NCBI GenBank assembly: GCA_015066975.1
Contig: SVNI01000006.1
Coordinates: 10,949 to 58,107 of the forward strand
DNA from: Ruminococcus sp.
GTDB lineage: Bacteria > Bacillota > Clostridia > Oscillospirales > Ruminococcaceae
Direction: 5' to 3'
Length of the DNA stretch: 47,159 bases
In this document: positions 1,606-44,916 of the stretch, one piece after another
How the letters are laid out: every line of letters starts with the position of its first letter
How positions within the stretch are numbered: position 1 is the stretch's first letter
Notes under the pieces: model-generated
Told to the model about the DNA's origin: nothing
Seen by the model: only the letters and a program-made list of their open reading frames with translations
Databases searched by the model: none
Made by a program: the position numbers and the translations under genes

Positions 1606-1681
1606 TGGAGCTGATGACCGGATTTGAACCGGTGACCTACGCCTTACCAAGGCGTTGCGCTACCACCTGTGCCACATCAGC
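1606..1681 (-). tRNA. tRNA-Thr(GGT), CCA encoded
   Basis: On the minus strand the sequence folds as a cloverleaf. The acceptor stem is GCTGATG/CATCAGC, the anticodon stem ACGCC/GGCGT with loop TTGGTAA (anticodon GGT), and the T arm ACCGG-TTCAAAT-CCGGT. The discriminator base is T, and CCA is encoded at 1606-1608. The gene is monocistronic, with its own consensus promoter about 16 bp upstream and a terminator immediately downstream. Confidence 0.97.
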
Positions 1682-33807: not shown

Positions 33808-34489
33808 GTTTCGGTTTCCGCTTCCAGACGGCGACAGCATTGGAATTGACTAATAACTTATCAATCTCGATTCCGGCCGGGCAGATATCCCGGCAGGCAA
33901 GAGATTTTCCGCATCCTTCGTAGATATGCTTTTTATAATTTTTGAACAGTTCTTTCTTCTGGGATTCCGGCAGAGCCGTCAGAAGCCTTGCTGTTGGTAT
34001 CATGGCTGACATACCGGAGAATTCTCCTCCTGCCCAGAAATTCGGACAGATTTCGAGACAGCATCCGCACTGTAAACATCTGGAAGCTTCATAAGCCGTC
34101 TGAGAACCGTTAGTTCTGGTTTCTTCCTCAAACCAGAGCTTCATGATTTTCAGATTCTCGAATAAAATACTTCTGTCAGCAATCAAATCCGCGATAACCG
34201 GAAACTTCCGGAGCGGTTCGATTCTGACTGTTCCGGCTTTGACGAATTCTTTCAGAGAGGTATCACAAGCGAGCCGGGGTCTGTTCTGAATCACCATAGC
34301 ACATGCACCGCATTTTTTCTGAAGACAACTGCATTCCCATCTGACAGGATTTTCAATCTTCTGATTGAGTTCTGTCAGAGCCACGGCGATATTTGCATTA
34401 TCATCCTCTGTCTGATAGTCATAGCTTTCCCAATGGGGCATTTCTTCCGGATGCTTCCGGCGGAGGATTTCTAATTTCAGAGTTATCAT
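33797..34489 (-). CDS. frdB: Fumarate reductase/succinate dehydrogenase iron-sulfur subunit
   Basis: 230 residues. The N-terminal ferredoxin domain binds [2Fe-2S] (CSCLQKKCGAC and a following C), the C-terminal domain has CLQCGCCLEICP and CGKSLACRDICP for [4Fe-4S] and [3Fe-4S]/[4Fe-4S] clusters. It relays electrons between the cytochrome b subunit and the flavoprotein. Start overlaps the frdA stop by 4 bp (ATGA). Confidence 0.93.
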   Translation of the reverse strand: MITLKLEILRRKHPEEMPHWESYDYQTEDDNANIAVALTELNQKIENPVRWECSCLQKKCGACAMVIQNRPRLACDTSLKEFVKAGTVRIEPLRKFPVIADLIADRSILFENLKIMKLWFEEETRTNGSQTAYEASRCLQCGCCLEICPNFWAGGEFSGMSAMIPTARLLTALPESQKKELFKNYKKHIYEGCGKSLACRDICPAGIEIDKLLVNSNAVAVWKRKPKHEK

Positions 34490-36063
34490 GTATCAGCCCT
34501 CTTTTCTGGAATTTCTCTGAATGAAATCTGTACTTGATTTTTATATTCTGCAATTGTTGTTTTCCGGAAGTTTTCATCTTTATCGGGATAGTCCTCCCGA
34601 TAGTGTGCGCCGCGGCTTTCTCTGCGCTCCAGAGCCGAACGAAGCATAGCTTCGGCTAACAGCAGACGATTCTGTTCATAAAAAGAATATTCTCTCTGAT
34701 TTTTCAGAACATCCAGCATATTCAGTGCATTCTGCAAAGTTTCCTGATTCCGGACGATTCCCAGACCGGAAAGCAAAATCTGACTGATTTCCTGAATCAG
34801 CACGGGAGATGCTTTTCCCGGAACAGATGCTGAAACTTCCTGATTTTCTTCTGTATCGAATTCAGCAGTTTCTATGATAGTTTCGGCAGATTTTCTTCCG
34901 CCGTAGAGCGCACCGAGCATGGAATTCCCTCCCAGACGGTTCGCCCCGTGATACTGACAAGTGCATTCACCAGAAGCATAGAGATTCTGAATATTAGTTC
35001 TGTGATATTCATCCGTATCGATACCGCCCATAAAATAATGAATCCCCTCTCTGACTGGAATCGGGTCAGATTTCGGGTCAAGTGACAGATAATGCATAAT
35101 CTCCTGACGCAAATCAGAAAGCTTTTTCTGCCATGTTTCGGATGATAATTCCGTCATATCAAGAAAAACTTCTCCGCCGAGTTCTCGCCGGATGAAATAC
35201 ATTTCACGGGCAACAACATCACGGGGCATGAGGTTTCCGAGTTCAGGATATTTTTCTTCCATGAAGTGATATTTCTGCCCGTTCCGCATGATGTAGAGCC
35301 GTCCGCCCTCACCTCTGGCGGCTTCGGTGACAAGACATCTCTTTCCGGAAATGCCGATTGTTGTCGGATGATACTGCAACATTTCAAGATTGCCGAGCTT
35401 CACGCCCTGCCGGAATACAGTTGCTGTCACATCGCCGGAATTCTGGGTCGTTCCGGTTGTCATTCCCGGAAAGATGCCGTTCATTCCGCCGGAGCATAAC
35501 AGCACAATTCCTTTGAAATCCGTTATCTTTCCGGTATAAGTATCCTGAATTCTGACTCCCTGACAGCCCTGATTTTCTATCAGCAGTCCGATAAATTCAT
35601 GATGCGGATATCTCTGCACCAGTCCGGACGCTTCATGCCTGCGGACTTCATCAATCAGAGCCGTCATGATAATCTTTCCGGTACTGCTTCGGGCATATGC
35701 CGTGCGTTTCTTCTTCTGACCGCCGAAGTTACGGAGCATAATATCAGAATCCGTCATATTGAACGGAACGCCTAATTTTTCCAGCCAGCGGACAATTTCC
35801 GGCGCATGGCCGGTAAGATTCTGCACAGCATTGGGGTCAGCCAGATACACACCGCCCCGGAGGGTATCTTCATAATGATTCTGAACGGTATCATTTTCGC
35901 CCATGGTATTGAGAGAAGCATTGATACCGCCCTCAGCAAGAACCGACTGTGCCCGTTCGGAATTCTGGAGAGAAATCAAAGCGCAGGAAATGCCGTGTTC
36001 TGCCAGCGCGACAGAAGCTGACATGCCTGCCAGCCCTGCTCCGATGATGATAACTTTCTGCAT
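34486..36063 (-). CDS. frdA: Fumarate reductase/succinate dehydrogenase-type flavoprotein subunit
   Basis: 525 residues. FAD-binding Rossmann motif VIIIGAGLAGMSASVAL, the substrate motif LQYHPTTIG, TEAARGEGGRL, and DMTELSS and the C-terminal HGANRLGGNSML. In the classical enzyme the FAD is covalently bound to a His; here that position appears to be Gln (RAQSVLAEGGINAS), so FAD is probably non-covalent, as in L-aspartate oxidase. Fumarate reduction to succinate fits Ruminococcus fermentation, but the direction is not proven. The size is shorter than enteric FrdA (about 600). Confidence 0.9.
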   Translation of the reverse strand: MQKVIIIGAGLAGMSASVALAEHGISCALISLQNSERAQSVLAEGGINASLNTMGENDTVQNHYEDTLRGGVYLADPNAVQNLTGHAPEIVRWLEKLGVPFNMTDSDIMLRNFGGQKKKRTAYARSSTGKIIMTALIDEVRRHEASGLVQRYPHHEFIGLLIENQGCQGVRIQDTYTGKITDFKGIVLLCSGGMNGIFPGMTTGTTQNSGDVTATVFRQGVKLGNLEMLQYHPTTIGISGKRCLVTEAARGEGGRLYIMRNGQKYHFMEEKYPELGNLMPRDVVAREMYFIRRELGGEVFLDMTELSSETWQKKLSDLRQEIMHYLSLDPKSDPIPVREGIHYFMGGIDTDEYHRTNIQNLYASGECTCQYHGANRLGGNSMLGALYGGRKSAETIIETAEFDTEENQEVSASVPGKASPVLIQEISQILLSGLGIVRNQETLQNALNMLDVLKNQREYSFYEQNRLLLAEAMLRSALERRESRGAHYREDYPDKDENFRKTTIAEYKNQVQISFREIPEKRADT

Positions 36064-36075
36064 ACAGCACTCCTT

Positions 36076-36627
36076 TCAGACCAGATTCCAGCGCAGATAA
36101 TAAATTACAAACGCAATTCCGGACAGAAGTAAAATAAACGACAGGATAAATAAAACATCCATCAGGATTTTAGCATAGCTTTTTGTTCCGACAGCAATCA
36201 TCAGAGGCTTGATATTCGACAGGACATGGACAGCCAGTGAAACCACAAGCAGAATCTGTGAAATCAACTGCAATATTCCGAAATAATTCAGTCTGTAGAC
36301 ACCGTTTTCGTCTTTGCCTAAGAAAATCAGCATATGGAACAGGATAAAAATCATGATAGCGAATCCGCTGGAACGTCTCAGCCAGAATAATTTATTATCT
36401 TTATAATAAGACGTTCCGGATTTCTTACAGGCTCTGAGCGTATCGGCTGTGAGCTTACAGCCGATTATCACATGAATGATGATGCATCCGAGCATTATCC
36501 ATGCGACTGTCTGCATCGCTCCTGAACCGCCCGGAATGATTCCGGCAAGCTGAAAGCTTCCGGCAATGGCATGAATCAGAAACAAGGCCAGAACGACCAT
36601 ACTCAATACAGCATTGAATTTTCTCAT
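36076..36627 (-). CDS. frdC: Cytochrome b-like membrane anchor of the fumarate reductase complex
   Basis: 183 residues with five hydrophobic helices. Candidate heme-ligand histidines are in FLIHAIAG, IIIHVIIG, LFHMLIF and LAVHVLSN. This fits a five-helix diheme b subunit (Wolinella FrdC-like). It would connect the FrdAB head to a quinone or other membrane electron donor. It starts 4 bp inside the preceding gene and is 12 bp from frdA. Confidence 0.85.
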   Translation of the reverse strand: MRKFNAVLSMVVLALFLIHAIAGSFQLAGIIPGGSGAMQTVAWIMLGCIIIHVIIGCKLTADTLRACKKSGTSYYKDNKLFWLRRSSGFAIMIFILFHMLIFLGKDENGVYRLNYFGILQLISQILLVVSLAVHVLSNIKPLMIAVGTKSYAKILMDVLFILSFILLLSGIAFVIYYLRWNLV

Positions 36628-37133
36628 GATTCTGCCCCCTGTACCTGAATGATTTCAATTTCCGGCATGTCAAAGAGCGTATCTGCATGATAGAAATCTG
36701 CAATTTCCTGTGACATCACCAGAATATCAAATTTCAGATGTTCTGCTTTGGAGAGTATCAGCGTAGCATCTTCGGTTTTGATTTCGCACTGGTGTTCCGG
36801 CAGACGTGACTGATAGTTTTCGGCAAGTGTTCCGGCATTGCTGTCGCTTGTCGCTACGGAACAGACGATATCTTCAAAAATCAGGTCAATTTCTTTTCCG
36901 GCAAAGAAATCACGCCAGATTTCAAGAGTTTCAGCATCTGTATGCCGTTCCAGATTGATGAAAACCAGATATGCACCGGACGGCTTATCGACAATCACGG
37001 ATGCACTCGAAACGGCATCCGGATTCCTGCTGATAAGTGCCTTACAGTAATCCGTCCGCAGAAACGGCACTCCCAGCACGAGAAACAAAACCAGAATGTC
37101 ACATACTATATGTCCGATAATTTTCATAAGCAT
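36624..37133 (-). CDS. Single-pass membrane-anchored protein (169 aa), unknown, in the iron/fumarate operon
   Basis: One N-terminal helix (MLMKIIGHIVCDILVLFLVLG), then a hydrophilic domain of about 140 residues with no match I recognise. It follows the FMN-lipoprotein stop (TAATG) and overlaps the frdC start by 4 bp, so it is translated with the complex. M1 or M3 (37127) may be the start. Possibly an accessory or electron-transfer factor, unproven. Confidence 0.75.
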   Translation of the reverse strand: MLMKIIGHIVCDILVLFLVLGVPFLRTDYCKALISRNPDAVSSASVIVDKPSGAYLVFINLERHTDAETLEIWRDFFAGKEIDLIFEDIVCSVATSDSNAGTLAENYQSRLPEHQCEIKTEDATLILSKAEHLKFDILVMSQEIADFYHADTLFDMPEIEIIQVQGAES

Positions 37134-37573
37134 TATTCTTCGGCCTGTTTGAGTGCTTCGCCCACAGCTTCTTTAAATTCATTATAATTGACTGTCGCAC
37201 CGCTGATAGCATCTACTTCTTTAAGGTTTCCCTTTTCAACGAGCTGGGCGGCATATTTATCACAGGCAGCAAGGGCTTTCTGCGCCTTGTTGTAGAAATC
37301 CTTATTGGCGATTTCGCCGTTTTCCTTGCCGTATTCCGCATCTTTCAGAGTGCCGTCAAGTTCAAATGTCTGGAATGTGCAGGCAGTAATTTCACCGCCG
37401 GAGATGGTTAATTCTACAACTCCATAACCGTTCCCGGCAGTGGAATCATCTTCATCATTAACATATTCCTGACTCTGTGCTTTATAAGTACCGTCGGCAT
37501 AGCTTTTGCTTCCGCAGGCAGTCAGGCAGACTGCCGAAAGTCCGCACAGCAAAATCAATAATTTCTTATTCAT
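37133..37573 (-). CDS. FMN-binding-domain lipoprotein
   Basis: 146 residues from the ATG at 37573 (GGAGG site inside the ATPase 3' end; the ATG at 37579 is too close to it). The lipobox is LTAC, Cys near residue 20. The FMN_bind domain runs from about residue 25 to the end, with VELTISGGEITA and the covalent flavinylation motif DAISGATVNY (Thr attachment by ApbE). It should hold FMN on the outer face. Extracellular flavoproteins of this type shuttle electrons. ApbE is not in the window. Confidence 0.9.
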   Translation of the reverse strand: MNKKLLILLCGLSAVCLTACGSKSYADGTYKAQSQEYVNDEDDSTAGNGYGVVELTISGGEITACTFQTFELDGTLKDAEYGKENGEIANKDFYNKAQKALAACDKYAAQLVEKGNLKEVDAISGATVNYNEFKEAVGEALKQAEE

Positions 37574-38330
37574 GAGCATTTTCCTCCGCCTGAATTTCTT
37601 CTTCTGATTTCAAATCCGTTTTAGTGACGTGAGTGCCTTCTTCATTGAAGTGAATCTTTCCGGTAAAGTTCTGATTCTGGACTTCCTTGACAACACGGCC
37701 GTTTCTCAGAACAATGGTTCTCTGGGCGACTTCGGCGACTTCGGGGTCATGGGTAACAACAATCAGAGTTGTTCCTTCGTCGTGAAGCTTGTGAAACAAA
37801 TCGACAACAATTTCTTCATTTGCTTCGTCGAGGTTTCCGGTCGGTTCATCAGCTAAGATAATTTCCGGATAGTTAATCAAAGCTCTTGCGACGCAGACTC
37901 TCTGCTGTTCACCGCCGGAAAGCTGGCTTGGCAGATGCTTGGCACGGTCAGCGAGCCCGACACGCTCCAAAGCTTCCATTGCTTCTTTCTCATCCGGAAT
38001 ACTGTGATAATACTGTGCCAGCATGACATTTTCAACTGCCGTCAGATAATTCACAAGATGGAACTGCTGAAAAATCAGGCCGATTTTATCTCTCCGGACA
38101 GTGGTCAGATTCTTTGCGCTTTCTTTGGCAATATCCACACCGTCGAGCAGAACTTCTCCTTTGCTGGGCTTATCCATACAGCCGATAATATTCATCATTG
38201 TGCTTTTGCCTGAACCGGAAGGCCCCATGATAGAAACCCATTCGCCCTTTTCGACCTTCATATTGACATTATCAAGGGCATGTAATTCACCGTAGATTTT
38301 ATAGACATTCTTCAATTCCAATAAGCTCAT
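37566..38330 (-). CDS. ABC transporter ATP-binding protein of the FTR1-P19 iron system
   Basis: 254 residues: Walker A GPSGSGKST, Q-loop, signature LSGGEQQR, Walker B IILADEPTGNLD, VVTHDPEVAEVA. It has an unusual C-terminal extension (from about residue 220) ending in a Glu-rich tail. It powers the two FtsX-like permeases just upstream, with 15-bp gaps. The same gene set is known from Campylobacter Cj1658-Cj1665 and related FetMP systems. Confidence 0.92.
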   Translation of the reverse strand: MSLLELKNVYKIYGELHALDNVNMKVEKGEWVSIMGPSGSGKSTMMNIIGCMDKPSKGEVLLDGVDIAKESAKNLTTVRRDKIGLIFQQFHLVNYLTAVENVMLAQYYHSIPDEKEAMEALERVGLADRAKHLPSQLSGGEQQRVCVARALINYPEIILADEPTGNLDEANEEIVVDLFHKLHDEGTTLIVVTHDPEVAEVAQRTIVLRNGRVVKEVQNQNFTGKIHFNEEGTHVTKTDLKSEEEIQAEENAHE

Positions 38331-38345
38331 GATAAAACACCTCTC

Positions 38346-39497
38346 TTATTCGCCTTTGAGTACTAAAGCCGGGTCGACTTCGGTCGCACTCCGGATAGGC
38401 ATCAGGCTGGACAGTCCCGTCACCAGCACCGAAACCAGAATTGTTATCGGCACAAGTGCAGGCATAAACGAAATCGAACTGCTGAACACATGGATGCTGA
38501 CTTGCTGTGCAAATACAAATCCCAGCACAGAGCCTAAAATTCCGCCCAGTCCGCCAAGCATCATGCTTTCGCCGAGGAATTCTTTCACAATGCTGGTATC
38601 TGATGCGCCGATAGCCTTTCTCAGGCCGATTTCTTTTCTGCGTTCGGTCACGACGGCAGTCATCGTCGTTGCGACACAAATCATAGTCAGTGCCAGCACG
38701 ACGACAGTGACCAGCAGTACAAGTGCCTGTAATTTGGTTAATACTGTCGTTTCCGATGCCGTCACTCTCTTGACAAGCCGGGCATTCACAGAAGAAACCA
38801 TACTGCTGATTTTTTCCGCATAGCCGGATAATTCATCAGAAGTTGCGGAAACACTGAGTTCTGCAACATCAATTGCGCCTGTTTCTCCTGTCAGTTCTTC
38901 CAAATCCGCAAGAGACATATAGAGATAATCTTCTTCCGAACCGCCTGTATCCAGAATGCCAGTAATTTCAAATTCAAGAATATTATCCTGAATGGTTTCA
39001 TCACCGGAAGCAGTTTCTGCCGGGGTATAGCTGACTTCCAGCATTTCGCCTGTTTTCAGCCGGAATGATTCCGCGATATTCGCACCTACGATAATCTGCC
39101 TGTCAGCGGAAGGCCATTCGCCGTCAATATGCCAGTACGGACTTGTCGCCTGTGCGCCTTTCATATCCGTACCGGCGGCGACAACCGGACTTTCATGCAC
39201 TCTGACATTTTCATAACGATACGGCGCAACACCGACTAATTTATCAGCTTCGATAAGAGCTGTTCCCTGCTGAACATCCGAGAGCGTGAAAGCATCATCA
39301 GAAGCAGTAAAAATCATATTTGCACCGTAATTACGGAACTGTGCGCCCATCTGCCGGGGCACATCATAATAGATAGTCACCAGACCAGAAAGCACAGTCG
39401 CGCCAATTGCGATAGAAAGCAAAGCTACCAGCATTCTGGAGCGTCTCCGCATCAGGGAAGCGGTAATCATGCGAAAATACATCTGTCTTTTTTTCAT
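38346..39497 (-). CDS. FtsX-like ABC permease, iron system (second of two)
   Basis: 383 residues with an N-terminal helix preceded by RMITASLMRRRSRMLVALLSI, a large extracellular domain and three C-terminal helices ending PIRSATEVDPALVLKGE, the FtsX family end motif, and RRKEIGLRKAIGAS. It is paralogous to the permease encoded just upstream, suggesting a heterodimer. The gap to the ATPase is 15 bp. Confidence 0.9.
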   Translation of the reverse strand: MKKRQMYFRMITASLMRRRSRMLVALLSIAIGATVLSGLVTIYYDVPRQMGAQFRNYGANMIFTASDDAFTLSDVQQGTALIEADKLVGVAPYRYENVRVHESPVVAAGTDMKGAQATSPYWHIDGEWPSADRQIIVGANIAESFRLKTGEMLEVSYTPAETASGDETIQDNILEFEITGILDTGGSEEDYLYMSLADLEELTGETGAIDVAELSVSATSDELSGYAEKISSMVSSVNARLVKRVTASETTVLTKLQALVLLVTVVVLALTMICVATTMTAVVTERRKEIGLRKAIGASDTSIVKEFLGESMMLGGLGGILGSVLGFVFAQQVSIHVFSSSISFMPALVPITILVSVLVTGLSSLMPIRSATEVDPALVLKGE

Positions 39498-39512
39498 GAT
39501 GATTCTCCTCTC

Positions 39513-40805
39513 TTAATGACCGCCGTGAAGCACTTCTGCCGGGCGCAGTCTCAGCAACATTCTGACCGCCGGGATACTTCCGGCAAGCGTGACAAGTACG
39601 ACCAGAATCGCCACAATCGGAATCACGACCGGCCGGAGCGAAATCGAAGAACCAAATACTGTATGCCCGATAATCTGTGCGAATCCGAATCCGGCAAAGA
39701 AACCGATAATTCCGCCAAGAATCGCCGTAATGAAGATTTCGGTCAGCACAAGTCCGGAAATTGCACCGTTCTGTGCGCCGATAGCTTTCATCAGGCCGAT
39801 TTCACTGCTTCGTTCCATAACACTTGCCGTTACCAGATTACAGATACCCAGTGCCGCGCCGATTAAGCTCAAAATCGTGATTAAAATCATCAGGAGCTGA
39901 GTCTTTTCGAGGATTGCGCCTTCGGAGTCGGCTACCTGCCGAACCGGAGAGGCTACAGAATCGGTGATAACTTCCTGAATCTGATAGCAGATAGAGCTTG
40001 CATAAGCTGTACAATACCAGATTTCATACTGTGAAACTGTCAGGGAGCTGGGGTCTTTGGCAGCTCTTTCAGCTAATTCGTTATCAGGAGTTGTCAGGGC
40101 ACTGACTTCGATACTGTCAATACAGCCGTCCAGATTGGCCATATCCTGCACAGTATTCAGAGGGGCGAAAATCTGGTCGTCTTCCTCACCGCCGGCATCA
40201 AAAATACCGACAATGCGGAAATTTTTTTCATGTTCAGAACCCTTGATATGCAAAGTATTTCCGACAGAAAGATTTAATTTCTTTGCTAATGCCGTACCAA
40301 TCATAGCGATTTCAGCATCTTCATTAGACTGTTCATCAAGCCATTCGCCGGATTCGATTTCCCACCAGCTTCGCAGGCTTGCAATACCAGCATCAAGCTG
40401 TTCACCTGTCGGGAGTTCCATATGATGATTGAACCAGCTTCCGATAACTTTCACATCCGAGCCGTCGTCGAGTGTTCCGCTGACCGTCACAAAAGGCGCA
40501 TAATCGACAATATTGAACGCCCAGAAGATAGTTTTAATCTTGCCTAGTTCGTCTTCACGGAGATAAGCTCCTGTGCCTTCGCCGTCCTCGACTTCATATA
40601 ATTCATTCAGGACAGAAGCCGCTTTGGGGACTACAGTGATATTTGCACCATAGGTTTTCAGTTCCTGATTGACTTTATCACCAACATCCAGCATAACACT
40701 GAGCATTGCTGCCGCAAGTGACGCACCCAGCGCGATAGTAAAAGCTATCATAAGCATTTTCTTCCACTGACGGAGCAGTGTACCTTTTATCATTCTCAAA
40801 AACAT
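39513..40805 (-). CDS. FtsX-like ABC permease, iron system (first of two)
   Basis: 430 residues, same topology as its neighbour: N-terminal helix (MLMIAFTIALGASLAAAML), an extracellular domain, and C-terminal helices with MERSSEIGLMKAIGAQNG and the end motif RMLLRLRPAEVLHGG. It lies 15 bp downstream of the DUF2318 gene. Permeases of this kind usually do not carry metal across directly; they may drive or regulate the extracytoplasmic step. Confidence 0.9.
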   Translation of the reverse strand: MFLRMIKGTLLRQWKKMLMIAFTIALGASLAAAMLSVMLDVGDKVNQELKTYGANITVVPKAASVLNELYEVEDGEGTGAYLREDELGKIKTIFWAFNIVDYAPFVTVSGTLDDGSDVKVIGSWFNHHMELPTGEQLDAGIASLRSWWEIESGEWLDEQSNEDAEIAMIGTALAKKLNLSVGNTLHIKGSEHEKNFRIVGIFDAGGEEDDQIFAPLNTVQDMANLDGCIDSIEVSALTTPDNELAERAAKDPSSLTVSQYEIWYCTAYASSICYQIQEVITDSVASPVRQVADSEGAILEKTQLLMILITILSLIGAALGICNLVTASVMERSSEIGLMKAIGAQNGAISGLVLTEIFITAILGGIIGFFAGFGFAQIIGHTVFGSSISLRPVVIPIVAILVVLVTLAGSIPAVRMLLRLRPAEVLHGGH

Positions 40806-40820
40806 AAAGTCTCTGCCCCC

Positions 40821-42092
40821 TTATTTGAATTCTTTCTCGAATTCGGAAAGCCCGTCTGTCGGAACGAGAATTTTTCCGTTTTCGATAGTGTAGGGAATAA
40901 CAATCGGGTTACAACCGCCCTTGAATCCAATCGTATTGATATTCATCACAACATCACAGAGATTGCAGACAACCTGACCGTCTTTTTCATAATATCCTGT
41001 TTCTCCGCAGATATCACAGGCATCCAGCCCGATTCCGTAAGAAGAAGAATTCGGCTTTTTAATTACAATAAATCTGACAGCAATATTATTTTCTGTTGTA
41101 TAGGCGAATCTGTGCAGATGACCGTCTTCGACCATCTCGAAACTGATTTCTACATTGCCGTCCACAACAGGAGCATCTTCCACAGGAGAAAGCTCTACTT
41201 CACGATTAGCGATAGCTTTCAGTTCGGTCAGATTGAGCAGGCTCAGTACAAGACAGGCCACAGCCAGCCCAGCCCATCTCTTGTTGACCAGCCATTTTTT
41301 AAGAATTTTGCGCTTTTCGGCAGGTGTTTTGTAAGGCTCATTCACATGCCGGCTTTTTATCCAAATCAGAACGGGGATGAATGCCGAAATTATCATGATT
41401 CCGAAAATAAACCAGTTATCATGATTGGAGGAAAACTGTGCAATCTTGAACAGCGAAACATCACCGAATAACTTATGATTCTGAATAATTTTCTTTGTCA
41501 GCATAATTCTCAGGCACATGGTGAGCTGACGAAGCCCGTTCATGCCAAGTACAAGACTGAGCATCAGCAACATGCTTCCGGAATCAAGGCGAATCAGACC
41601 TTTTCCGGCGGAAAGTCCTGCCAGAAATACCAGAATCACCCCGAACAGAATCCCGATAACTTTAAAAATAAACGCTGTCGATAATACTGATTTTTCAACT
41701 AACAGAATCGAATACGGATACACCAGCACATCCGGCAGGGCATAAGTTACCGTAATTATCATGATGATGCAAAGCGTGATGCATCCTATCCATTCAGATG
41801 CTTTCGGAATCGGTTTCCGGAGTGCCGAACCTATCCAGAACAGCACCAGCGCACCCAATGCGATAAAAAACAGAACCATGACAATTTCATTCCATTTGGA
41901 AGAAGTCAGCAGTTTTGTGCCGTTTTTGAGATAAGCGACTGTTCCTGCGCCGATAAGTCCGGCCAGCAGACCAATCAAGGCGAAAATTTTTCCTTTTCTG
42001 CCGAATTTTGCACCAGTATAAAAATACAGCATACCTGTCAGCAGACCTGCCGAAAGCAGAGCTTCGGTAGTATCTACAAAGTATTTTAGCAT
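40821..42092 (-). CDS. Membrane protein with C-terminal DUF2318 (predicted Fe-S) domain, iron system
   Basis: 423 residues. The first about 290 form seven or more transmembrane helices; the last about 130 are DUF2318, with cysteines in ACDICGETGYY, VCNLCDVVM and GGCNPIV. DUF2318 proteins accompany FTR1-P19 operons, and the cysteine set suggests a metal or Fe-S centre on the extracytoplasmic side. It could pass electrons or iron to P19/FTR1, which is inference. Start at 42092 with GGAGGT. Confidence 0.9.
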   Translation of the reverse strand: MLKYFVDTTEALLSAGLLTGMLYFYTGAKFGRKGKIFALIGLLAGLIGAGTVAYLKNGTKLLTSSKWNEIVMVLFFIALGALVLFWIGSALRKPIPKASEWIGCITLCIIMIITVTYALPDVLVYPYSILLVEKSVLSTAFIFKVIGILFGVILVFLAGLSAGKGLIRLDSGSMLLMLSLVLGMNGLRQLTMCLRIMLTKKIIQNHKLFGDVSLFKIAQFSSNHDNWFIFGIMIISAFIPVLIWIKSRHVNEPYKTPAEKRKILKKWLVNKRWAGLAVACLVLSLLNLTELKAIANREVELSPVEDAPVVDGNVEISFEMVEDGHLHRFAYTTENNIAVRFIVIKKPNSSSYGIGLDACDICGETGYYEKDGQVVCNLCDVVMNINTIGFKGGCNPIVIPYTIENGKILVPTDGLSEFEKEFK

Positions 42093-42133
42093 AGAAAACG
42101 ACCTCCTTTTTTATGCCGTCAGAAACACACAAG

Positions 42134-42156
42134 TGCGCCGTGCAGGACACGGCGCA
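42134..42156 (-). other. Intercistronic hairpin between the P19 and DUF2318 genes
   Basis: TGCGCCGTG pairs with CACGGCGCA around a 5-nt loop. There is no T tract, so it looks like an mRNA-stabilising or processing structure rather than a terminator. Confidence 0.65.
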
Positions 42157-42183
42157 TGATTTTGTGCAGATATATGGCGAAAA

Positions 42184-42894
42184 TTACCATTCCTGAGGCA
42201 GATATTCCCAGCCTTCATAAGTAACGGTCAGGTTGCCGTCTTTGAAGTAATCATCAAAGCTTCCGCCAGGGCCAGTTTCAGCATCTACATGGAGCAGATA
42301 GCCGTTTTCTTCCGGGCTGTGGAATGTGAATTCCAGAGTATAGGTATCGGCATCGGGCAGAGAGATATTTGCACCATAGTGAGGGCCGTCAGAAGCACTC
42401 ATTACCATGAAAGAGCCCTTTGCAGCATCAGAGCCGTCAGATGCGATTACTCTGTAATCTACTGTCATGTAAGGAACCCAGTCGCCGACACCAAAGCCGA
42501 GCTTGTTTTCCAGAGCAGAAACGTCAGCTTCCAGGTGCAGGTCAAAGCCTTCGATGCTTTCATTGCCGCCGGACATCGGAACAGGCTGGAAGTATACAGC
42601 GGATACGTTCAGGAAACCTGTTTCAATATCTTCAAAAATCGGAATTTCTGTGAAACCTGCTTCACCGCCCGGAACAGGAGCATCAGCAGCGGCTTCGCTG
42701 TTGACTTCGGCATCAACAGCTTCTGCGGAAGTTACATCAGCTTCGGAGCTGTTGTTATCAGCCTGTGCAGCAGTTTCTGCAACAGATGCTGTATTTTCGG
42801 CTGTTGTGGATTCAGATTCTGTATTGCCGCCGCAGGCTGTCAGGGACAGTGCCATAGAAGCGAGCAGTGCAATGCCAACTAATTTCTTTGTCAT
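42184..42894 (-). CDS. P19/Tp34-family iron-transport lipoprotein
   Basis: 236 residues: lipobox LTAC (Cys near residue 21), a low-complexity Ala/Glu/Ser linker to about residue 75, then the P19 domain. Candidate metal ligands are in VPMSGG, DLHLEADV, GPHYGAN and LHVDAE, matching the Met/His/Glu sites of Campylobacter P19, which binds copper and iron. It stands between FTR1 and the DUF2318 protein, flanked by a hairpin on each side. It delivers ferrous or ferric iron to FTR1 by analogy. Confidence 0.92.
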   Translation of the reverse strand: MTKKLVGIALLASMALSLTACGGNTESESTTAENTASVAETAAQADNNSSEADVTSAEAVDAEVNSEAAADAPVPGGEAGFTEIPIFEDIETGFLNVSAVYFQPVPMSGGNESIEGFDLHLEADVSALENKLGFGVGDWVPYMTVDYRVIASDGSDAAKGSFMVMSASDGPHYGANISLPDADTYTLEFTFHSPEENGYLLHVDAETGPGGSFDDYFKDGNLTVTYEGWEYLPQEW

Positions 42895-42970: not shown

Positions 42971-44614
42971 TTATTTTTTGGCCGGCTTTGTCTTTTTCGG
43001 CTTAGGTTTGAGTTCTTCTTGAAACTGTTCATCTGATTCGGTCAGGAAGTGAATTCCCTCACCGATACTAATCAGGAACGGAATCCCCGACCAGCATGTT
43101 GCCGCATAGATGAGGCCTTTTCCGTACTTGCCCAGATAGAACTTGTGAATGCCGAGTCCGCCGAGTACAATCGCCAGAATACCGGCTTCTTTTCTGTTTC
43201 TGGAGTTCCATTTCTGCATCACGAAAATCATGATAGTGATGAAAATCAGAATCAACTGCGGAATCAGTGTTTCCAGACAAGGATAAATTCCCAGTACATC
43301 GAATACGTTATTCGTCGGAATCAGGTTTGCTAAAATCGCCGGAGAAGTCATTGTCATGACATCACCTTCGATAAGTTCCTTGATGCCCGAACCTAAGAAC
43401 GAAATCGACATGACAAACATCAGAATGCTTGTTCCTAAGAAGAACGGACGAATCGGAAGCTTGACACTCAGGAATCTGATAGCTAAGAATACAAATACCA
43501 GTATCACACAGCCGACTGCAAAACCGCCCCAGACATATTTCGGGTCATCGCTCAAAAGAGGCTGATAGAACAGAATCACTTCCGCGCCTTCTCTGAATAC
43601 GGCTAAGAATGCGGTAAACGCAAGTGTGAACACATTTCCGGTTTCCGCAGAAACTTTAATCTGTTCGTCAATGTATTTTGTCCATGCTTCAGATTCGGCT
43701 TTTGATACCATCCAGTTGCTGACATAGAACAGCACCAGCACGGCAATCAGTGCCGTAATGCCTTCAATAATTTCCTGATTTGCGCTGTTGGCGAGTTTCA
43801 GGAGACTTAACAGCCATGCACACAGGAAACTTGCACCAATTGCCAGCACACATCCAGTATACACATATTTAAGTTTATCTTTATTACCGGACTTCACCAG
43901 ATAGGCGATAATCGCACCGACAACCAGAATTGCTTCAAGACCTTCACGGACAATAATTCCCAGACAAGCGATAAATGTCACCATTCCGCCGCCGCCACCG
44001 CCGACACTGACAGCACTTGCTGACGGTGTAACAGAAGTGGTTTCTGCCTTGGCTTCGGAGACAGCTTCTGCATCTGCGGAAGTTTCGGCTTCAGCAACAT
44101 CAGCAGATGTGGTATCTCCGCCTCTGGAAAGACCGCTTGTTCCGGTATCACCAATGCCGTCAAGCTTATTGGCATCCGTATGGAGCATTTCACTGAGCTT
44201 GCTCAACTCTGTAAAAAATTCATCTGTTGAACCGCCGTTTTTAGTGACCGTCTTACAGGAACTAAACTGTAATTCCACTTCTGTTTTACGGCTTCCGGCA
44301 ATATAGCCCATAGCGACACGTTCAAAGCCTGTTGTTTCGTAATAGCCATAATAAGCGGCATTCACCGCGCCGTGTGCGCCTGTTGCATCACCGCTCTGGT
44401 AGAGCACATCTGCGGCTTCAAGTACATCATCCATTGCATTGGCGACATCATTCCACGAGGAAGATGCTCCACCGGAATTTTTATACTCATCCCATGTTGC
44501 AATATATTCTCCTGCCGCGGATGCAGTCAGCCCTGAGAAACAGAACAGCAGGAACATTATCGTCAGCATGAGCGCACTGAATATACTGAACAGCCGTTTT
44601 TTTTGCACGGGCAT
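42971..44614 (-). CDS. FTR1-family iron permease with extracellular N-terminal domain and C-terminal TM2 domain
   Basis: 547 residues from the ATG at 44614. A signal peptide (to about residue 34) is followed by an extracellular helical domain (about 35-160), a disordered stretch with Gly6, then the FTR1 core. The iron-binding REGLE motif is at residues 223-227 and REGAE at 341-345. Residues about 475-524 form a TM2-like domain (ILAIVLGGLGIHKFYLG), followed by a Lys/Pro tail. It imports iron, presumably after oxidation or with the P19/DUF2318/ABC partners. It heads the operon and has a long structured leader. Confidence 0.93.
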   Translation of the reverse strand: MPVQKKRLFSIFSALMLTIMFLLFCFSGLTASAAGEYIATWDEYKNSGGASSSWNDVANAMDDVLEAADVLYQSGDATGAHGAVNAAYYGYYETTGFERVAMGYIAGSRKTEVELQFSSCKTVTKNGGSTDEFFTELSKLSEMLHTDANKLDGIGDTGTSGLSRGGDTTSADVAEAETSADAEAVSEAKAETTSVTPSASAVSVGGGGGGMVTFIACLGIIVREGLEAILVVGAIIAYLVKSGNKDKLKYVYTGCVLAIGASFLCAWLLSLLKLANSANQEIIEGITALIAVLVLFYVSNWMVSKAESEAWTKYIDEQIKVSAETGNVFTLAFTAFLAVFREGAEVILFYQPLLSDDPKYVWGGFAVGCVILVFVFLAIRFLSVKLPIRPFFLGTSILMFVMSISFLGSGIKELIEGDVMTMTSPAILANLIPTNNVFDVLGIYPCLETLIPQLILIFITIMIFVMQKWNSRNRKEAGILAIVLGGLGIHKFYLGKYGKGLIYAATCWSGIPFLISIGEGIHFLTESDEQFQEELKPKPKKTKPAKK

Positions 44615-44779
44615 TTTCAATCCCTCCTCCAGGATTTTATTTTATTTTTAAAGGAAAATCGCCAAAAAGTTAGAAAATGCTAACCCATATGGCAAGGAGG
44701 GACTGCCGCGTTTTTTCCGTCGGCAGTCTCAATTATCTGAAATTACTGAGCAAATATCACATCACAGATAAATCCTACA
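44615..44779 (-). promoter_or_regulatory. Structured leader of the iron/fumarate operon (candidate cis-regulatory RNA)
   Basis: This 302-bp gap holds the promoter and about 165 nt of leader. In order on the minus strand: TTATCTG (44765-44771 side) pairs with CAGATAA (44733-44739 side) over 25 nt; GACTGCCG/CGGCAGTC forms an 8-bp stem (44701-44708 and 44721-44728). TCCCTCCT (44695-44702) is perfectly complementary to AGGAGGGA of the ribosome binding site (44621-44628). Between them is GTTAG-CATTTT-CTAAC (44669-44684). Pairing TCCCTCCT with the ribosome binding site would block translation. It matches no riboswitch class I recognise. The dyad may instead be a DNA operator. Confidence 0.55.
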
Positions 44780-44785
44780 GTATTT

Positions 44786-44814
44786 ATTTTAGCATAATCT
44801 AACCGAAAAAGCAA
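44786..44814 (-). promoter_or_regulatory. Promoter of the FTR1-P19-frd operon with operator-like dyad
   Basis: TTGCTT (44809-44814), a 17-bp spacer and TAAAAT (44786-44791) with TG of an extended -10. A dyad (GTTAG-ATTATG-CTAAA, 44788-44803) covers the -10 and spacer, a near copy of the leader dyad at 44669-44684. A metal-responsive repressor (DtxR/MntR/Fur class) is a reasonable guess. Confidence 0.7.
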
Positions 44815-44820
44815 GCAAAA

Positions 44821-44835
44821 TCACAAGATTTGTGA
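44821..44835. promoter_or_regulatory. Perfect dyad TCACAA-GAT-TTGTGA upstream of the -35 box
   Basis: A 6-3-6 palindrome, 6 bp upstream of the iron operon's -35 box. It could bind an activator, or with the T-rich bases after it form a weak terminator for the ligase gene. Confidence 0.4.
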
Positions 44836-44916
44836 CCTGAAACAAAAATTTTCTATCCTGACGGAAGATATTGTTCACAAACGCTAGAAACATATCAGAA
44901 AAAAGTTAGCTAGGGT

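Follow-up and report, generated by a model that had tools for sequence, protein, structure and literature searches.

What controls the iron-uptake operon whose leader lies at 44615-44814 of this Ruminococcus sp. DNA: a repressor that acts on two operators, an RNA switch in the 5′ leader, or both? The window, that is, the whole stretch of 47,159 nucleotides analysed here, covers contig positions 10949-58107 of a genome of 2.61 Mb that is split into 179 contigs. The leader is on the minus strand, between an O-antigen-ligase-like gene (Wzy_C, Pfam) and a run of ten genes headed by an FTR1 iron permease with a C-terminal TM2 domain (42971-44614, minus strand; PF03239, E 1.7e-20; PF05154, E 2.4e-15). 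The rest of the presumed operon (34486-42894, minus strand) encodes, according to Pfam matches, the P19 Fe2+ transport protein, an FtrD-like protein, two MacB/FtsX permeases, an ABC ATPase, an FMN-binding protein and a fumarate-reductase-type flavoprotein, together with two proteins without a Pfam match. From the shared strand and gene order we infer that the ten genes are co-transcribed. By FTR1 identity, the nearest named relatives are metagenome-assembled genomes called Ruminococcus or Oscillospiraceae, several of them from ruminant stomachs. The window also holds a tRNA gene (1609-1681, minus strand).

The joint occurrence of FTR1, P19 and an FMN-binding gene is the mark of the P19-associated iron-assimilation cluster, as described in PMC8238504, and Pfam finds all three here. 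According to PMC8238504 and PMC6083913, this three-gene arrangement, which the Ruminococcus operon shares, is reported mostly for Gram-positive species, and the Campylobacter P19 cluster is placed behind a Fur box, whereas in the Ruminococcus operon the boxes are DtxR-like and the leader is structured. A further difference is that the Ruminococcus gene run is closed by the fumarate-reductase-type flavoprotein.

The promoter of the operon reads TTGCTT-17-TAAAAT, with the -35 hexamer at 44809-44814 and the -10 hexamer at 44786-44791 (both minus strand), the latter preceded by TGC in the manner of an extended -10 element. TTG-N20-TAAAAT, with its 17-bp spacer, is kept in 8/8 species. Upstream of the -35 hexamer, the stretch TTTTGTTTCAGGTCACAAATCTTG (44824-44847) is by eye mostly kept in the eight species; it could serve as an UP-type element or be bound by an activator. 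The first-pass annotation had reported GTTAG-N6-CTAAC twice, once on the promoter and once inside the leader. The leader copy, GTTAGCATTTTCTAAC (44669-44684, minus strand), is exact, but the promoter copy, GTTAGATTATGCTAAA (44788-44803, minus strand), departs by one mismatch, its right arm ending in CTAAA because the dyad is merged with the -10 hexamer. The promoter box reads GTTAGNNTATGCTAAA in 8/8 species and covers the spacer and the -10 hexamer; the arms of the leader box are likewise kept in 8/8 species, and its N6 varies. The distance between the two boxes, 119-156 bp across species, is not phased, a point against the reading favoured below. An intrinsic terminator made of the second box and a T run was considered and rejected, as relatives do not keep the T run and a terminator scan of the leader came out negative.

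The plainest account of such repeats would be chance dyads in AT-rich sequence, and the number of exact boxes in the genome agrees with it: three in 2.61 Mb, against 2.9 expected from the base composition of the window. As the exact box is not rare, the weight rests on placement and conservation. Across 38 genomes of the genus, 78 exact sites were counted against 47 for the reversed control, so the counts alone say little and placement is the informative measure; 73 distinct sites were used for gene placement and 72 for the intergenic tally, in both cases among the matches listed. By a simple longest-frame rule 65/72 boxes (among the matches listed) are intergenic, and 41/73 exact boxes (likewise among the matches listed) precede FTR1, FeoA, FeoB, ZIP or FtrD genes that point away from them, 37 of those 41 at no more than 150 nt. 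This is the placement of an iron-uptake regulon, as for DtxR-type boxes. The figure of 41/73 is limited to FTR1, Feo, ZIP and FtrD, with Feo and ZIP queries that also came from box loci and families named by Pfam. A wider gene set raises the total to 62/73, a value that is biased because the query representatives (DUF3793, AraC, ABC, FMN-binding and Trep_Strep) were taken from box loci. Cross-species conservation and placement contradict a chance origin, to which we give next to no credence.

Within this genome, the expectation that other exact boxes would lie near metal genes was borne out for one, an intergenic box 34 nt before a ZIP gene, but not for the other, which lies within an NRPS-like frame (by eye). 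Eleven boxes differ from the exact form by one mismatch. Among them are the FTR1 promoter box and five boxes that precede a gene or touch its start, the genes being two of AraC type, two for ABC transporters and one methyltransferase-like; the remaining five, in or at coding frames with no evident link to iron, count against the box reading. Five genomes of the genus (G005, G008, G018, G029 and G033) hold no exact box, although DtxR is matched in four of them.

The upstream regions of FTR1 genes carry the argument further. Clear FTR1 matches were obtained at 28 loci, 16 of them in the genus and 12 outside it; 26 were taken for upstream reading, the two weakest (L232 and L233) being left out, and 25 were read, since no start was obtained for L061. 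TTAG-N6-CTAA occurs within 450 nt upstream of FTR1 in 23/25 loci, in up to four copies; the start codons are script-based guesses, and some boxes lie about 300 nt away from them. The arms are fixed and the spacer drifts, and this, with the repeated copies, is how a protein-binding site behaves, not an RNA stem. One leader, found at L223 and again at L026, has four GTTAG-N6-CTAAC boxes within ~170 nt upstream of FTR1. In another FTR1 leader (L028), a terminator-like hairpin followed by TTTTATTTTT is seen by eye before the leader box, perhaps an attenuation device. This cross-species comparison gives good support to the earlier proposal of a metalloregulator with two operators, its binding being putative, and on the same sequence evidence we hold two-operator repression by iron to be highly probable.

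Which protein would bind the boxes is a separate matter. The DtxR consensus operator is given as TTAGGTTAGSCTAACCTAA in PMC1382209, and contains two TTAG-N6-CTAA units offset by 5 within a 19-bp operator. Both Ruminococcus boxes have the TTAG and CTAA arms with a 6-bp spacer, and the unit itself, the location in iron-uptake promoters and a DtxR encoded in the same genome are shared with the DtxR/IdeR iron box as PMC1382209 presents it. The DtxR/IdeR operator described there is an overlapped pair of 19 bp, whereas the boxes at 44669-44684 and 44788-44803 are single units; moreover, the transcribed leader here contains another box apart from the first, and the host is a member of the Clostridia.

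The genome encodes one DtxR protein (PF02742, PF01325) and also Fur, so the presence of a DtxR gene is not decisive. Nor can co-occurrence decide between the two regulators, since the families are equally widespread, each matched in 33/38 genomes of the genus. Gene adjacency leans towards DtxR over Fur: DtxR-like genes that pass the Pfam cut-off adjoin a box in G009 (with feoB), G010 and G012, and a weaker DtxR match in G016 lies ~0.5 kb from a box preceding feoB. The Fur box is a 7-1-7 repeat resembling TGATAATnATTATCA, and the leader box does not fit that repeat when compared by eye. Fur is a possible regulator of the boxes; a putative binding protein of the DtxR type is, from the sequences, the likely one. 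Directly after the DtxR gene of this genome (L045:213-596) comes a frame that by eye resembles a 4'-phosphopantetheinyl transferase. Together with the near-exact boxes at an AraC-type and an ABC-transporter gene and the exact box in the NRPS-like frame (loci L001, L005 and L006), this arrangement hints at a siderophore system.

The second half of the question concerns the leader RNA. Six nucleotides after the -10 hexamer begins a conserved core of 89 nt (44691-44779, minus strand) that folds into a three-way junction. Its closing stem, P1, pairs GTAGGA (44773-44778), invariant in 8 species, with TCCTTGC (44692-44698), a strand that overlaps the anti-Shine-Dalgarno discussed below. The two hairpin stems of the first-pass annotation are both present on the minus strand, the 7-bp TTATCTG/CAGATAA at 44765-44771 with 44733-44739 (P2) and the 8-bp GACTGCCG/CGGCAGTC at 44721-44728 with 44701-44708 (P3, consensus across species GACTGCYG/CRGCAGTC). 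Three extra pairs predicted in the P2 loop were not used, one of them being broken in 2/8 species. The 165-nt leader folds better than dinucleotide shuffles of itself (z -3.3; 2/200 as good), as does the 89-nt core (z -3.0; 1/200 as good). In the alignment 98.3% of pair cells are paired, a value equalled by 68/500 shuffles. Changes on both sides affect 2/22 pairs, both in P3, with 24/500 shuffles reaching the covariation score, and P1 and P2 show one-sided changes or none. The stems are kept in related genomes, as the first-pass annotation had required, but the covariation that it also asked for is thin, and the case for the RNA is carried by conservation, not by covariation.

That conservation is strong and local. 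Mean pairwise identity is 0.94 over the first 34 nt of the core (8 species), 0.90 in the promoter and 0.82 over the whole core; it is 0.69 in the 60 nt upstream of the promoter, 0.54 from the leader box to the start codon and 0.26 between core and box. Four-fold degenerate sites of FTR1 have an identity of 0.53, with 28/183 invariant (7 species). We are confident, to the degree that such comparison allows, that the leader contains a conserved functional RNA. The perfect inverted repeat TTATCTG-N25-CAGATAA and the high conservation of the DNA could instead mark a second DNA operator, for an activator or a repressor that acts just past the start site. The arms of P2 lie 24-27 nt apart across species, however, a variation that breaks helical phase and is easier to reconcile with an RNA hairpin than with a phased operator. 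The pairing of P3 is also kept through changes, and the constraint extends beyond the arms into the loop, so that an operator in place of the RNA is improbable.

A conserved structured domain in the 5′ leader is what a riboswitch would present, and its distribution is narrow. The covariance model found the core, 89-92 nt long, in 8/38 genomes of the genus, this one included (E 2.8e-15 or better), and no second core locus in those 38 genomes, the 12 further places reaching only E 0.15-0.86. A search of 396 genomes of the family, less sensitive because the best 10 candidates per genome were scored under stricter filters, and thus liable to miss weak relatives, returned four matches besides the window (E 0.0025-0.036), which were rejected as chance. 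Two of these four (L093 and L094), when aligned, match mainly through a GC hairpin, and none of the frames beside the four resembles FTR1 by eye. Applied to 17 FTR1 loci outside the core group, model R1 gave one match (E 2.6), also rejected. One FTR1 leader, L062 in G002, shares with the core a TGTAG placed 6 nt past TAAAAT, but where P3 would be, before CCCTCCTTATATGG, it has an unrelated hairpin; it was not found by model R1 and could be a distant member. The leaders of L224, L222 and L025 contain stretches resembling CCTCCTT or TCCTTGC too, which is a lead rather than a result. No Rfam family matched the leader at the gathering threshold, in agreement with the first-pass statement that it fits no known riboswitch class; relaxing the search to E up to 10 gave six matches, all below gathering scores and none credible. 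A leader peptide was ruled out as well, the short frame of L016 and L017 (ATG ATA TTT GCT CAG TAA) having no start codon in L020 and L021.

Control of transcription alone might account for the locus, the two boxes being sufficient and the leader RNA acting as a passive 5′ stability element or an effector-free shield of the Shine-Dalgarno. Two observations fit this account: the boxes persist at FTR1 genes without the core (boxes at 23/25, core at 7/25), and the covariation is weak. As the core is absent from 18/25 FTR1 upstream regions, it is dispensable. A passive element does not sit well with 34 nt, loop included, that are near-invariant and far more constrained than four-fold sites, a pattern which suggests base-specific recognition, or with the predicted masking of the Shine-Dalgarno in 6/7 leaders. 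We regard this account as rather unlikely.

The masking depends on an 8-nt anti-Shine-Dalgarno, TCCCTCCT (44695-44702, minus strand), which is found as first described and forms eight Watson-Crick pairs with the FTR1 Shine-Dalgarno stretch AGGAGGGA (44621-44628, minus strand). A run this long with the Shine-Dalgarno region arises in 6/1000 letter shuffles of the window's core; in the six other leaders the longest run is matched in 13 to 86 of 1000 shuffles, which is weaker for each taken singly. Seven leaders entered this analysis, as the eighth (L077) ends at a contig edge before the Shine-Dalgarno. Whole-leader folds predict the site to be mostly paired in 6/7, with a mean unpaired probability of 0.004-0.22 and an opening cost of 5.3-8.4 kcal/mol in those six. 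Folded alone, the core is predicted to adopt P1 in its best fold in 6/7 species, window included. The exception to the masking is L018, in which the anti-Shine-Dalgarno is changed to ATCCCTTGC and the longest run lies elsewhere; there the Shine-Dalgarno is predicted to be 0.53 unpaired and masking to be lost, the consensus P1 can be drawn with one of its six pairs broken, and the core alone prefers another fold. Since the 3′ strand of P1 overlaps the anti-Shine-Dalgarno, P1 and masking are predicted to exclude each other. The idea of an undescribed RNA switch is thereby favoured in part, by a conserved structured leader absent from Rfam and by the masking predicted in 6/7 leaders, and a translational switch that sets P1 against the anti-Shine-Dalgarno is, on these folding models, plausible if not quite probable. 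As the favoured full-leader fold is closed in six leaders, opening it would cost an effector ~5 kcal/mol unless it acted during transcription.

The conserved loop ATATTTGCTCAG and the masking would also be compatible with an RNA thermometer or with the target of a small RNA. No exact complement of the loop was found in the genome (exact matching only), and a fully complementary trans-acting RNA partner was rejected on that ground. The sole other exact genomic copy of ATATTTGCTCAG lies in sense orientation and so offers no complementary partner; it lies within a frame without a Pfam match (L220:1472-1667), which is at least 65 codons long and truncated at the end of the locus. We judge either mechanism highly improbable.

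A small-molecule or metal riboswitch is a tentative reading. We know of no iron-uptake gene with a settled iron-responsive riboswitch, and our literature search, judged by titles or the beginnings of abstracts, returned none; nor did it return a paper on this leader, the box or an iron-box regulon in Ruminococcus, or one linking Ruminococcus, feoB and DtxR. The metal-sensing riboswitches described in PMC9294342 include yybP-ykoY (Mn2+) and czcD (Ni and Co, with iron debated), which resemble the present RNA in their location in the 5′ leader of a metal-transport gene, here with predicted control of the ribosome binding site. The Ruminococcus RNA differs in having no Rfam match, in serving an uptake rather than an efflux gene, and in its occurrence at one locus in eight species. 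The 89-nt core could be the first representative of an orphan riboswitch class, in which a P1 strand doubles as anti-Shine-Dalgarno, an iron-related ion or cofactor (e.g. Fe2+, Mn2+, heme or FMN) is sensed, and translation of a DtxR-controlled operon is gated, but we put this forward as doubtful.

The combined results suggest, with somewhat better than balanced confidence, that the region forms the promoter and leader of an iron-assimilation operon of the P19-associated kind, controlled at two stacked levels; the first-pass view that both an RNA switch and two operators could hold is the best-supported reading. An Fe2+-loaded repressor of the DtxR/IdeR type would bind the TTAG-N6-CTAA boxes at the -10 hexamer and again 119 bp downstream, and would thereby prevent initiation and probably elongation too, so that the operon would be read at low iron. 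The transcript would start at or beside the 89-nt three-way-junction RNA, which is under strong sequence constraint. With P1 formed, the ribosome binding site would be free, and with P1 lost it would be hidden by the anti-Shine-Dalgarno; an effector (a metal, cofactor, protein or small RNA) may tip the balance, the predicted sense being that the effector-bound state is ON. The repressor boxes look like a known kind of switch, and the leader RNA looks undescribed and was detected in a few sister species only. The locus is a compact test of such layered control, in which a single operon combines two boxes with one RNA and natural variants either have or lack the RNA, and the boxes outline a candidate iron-box regulon in a Ruminococcus group that comes mostly from the rumen.
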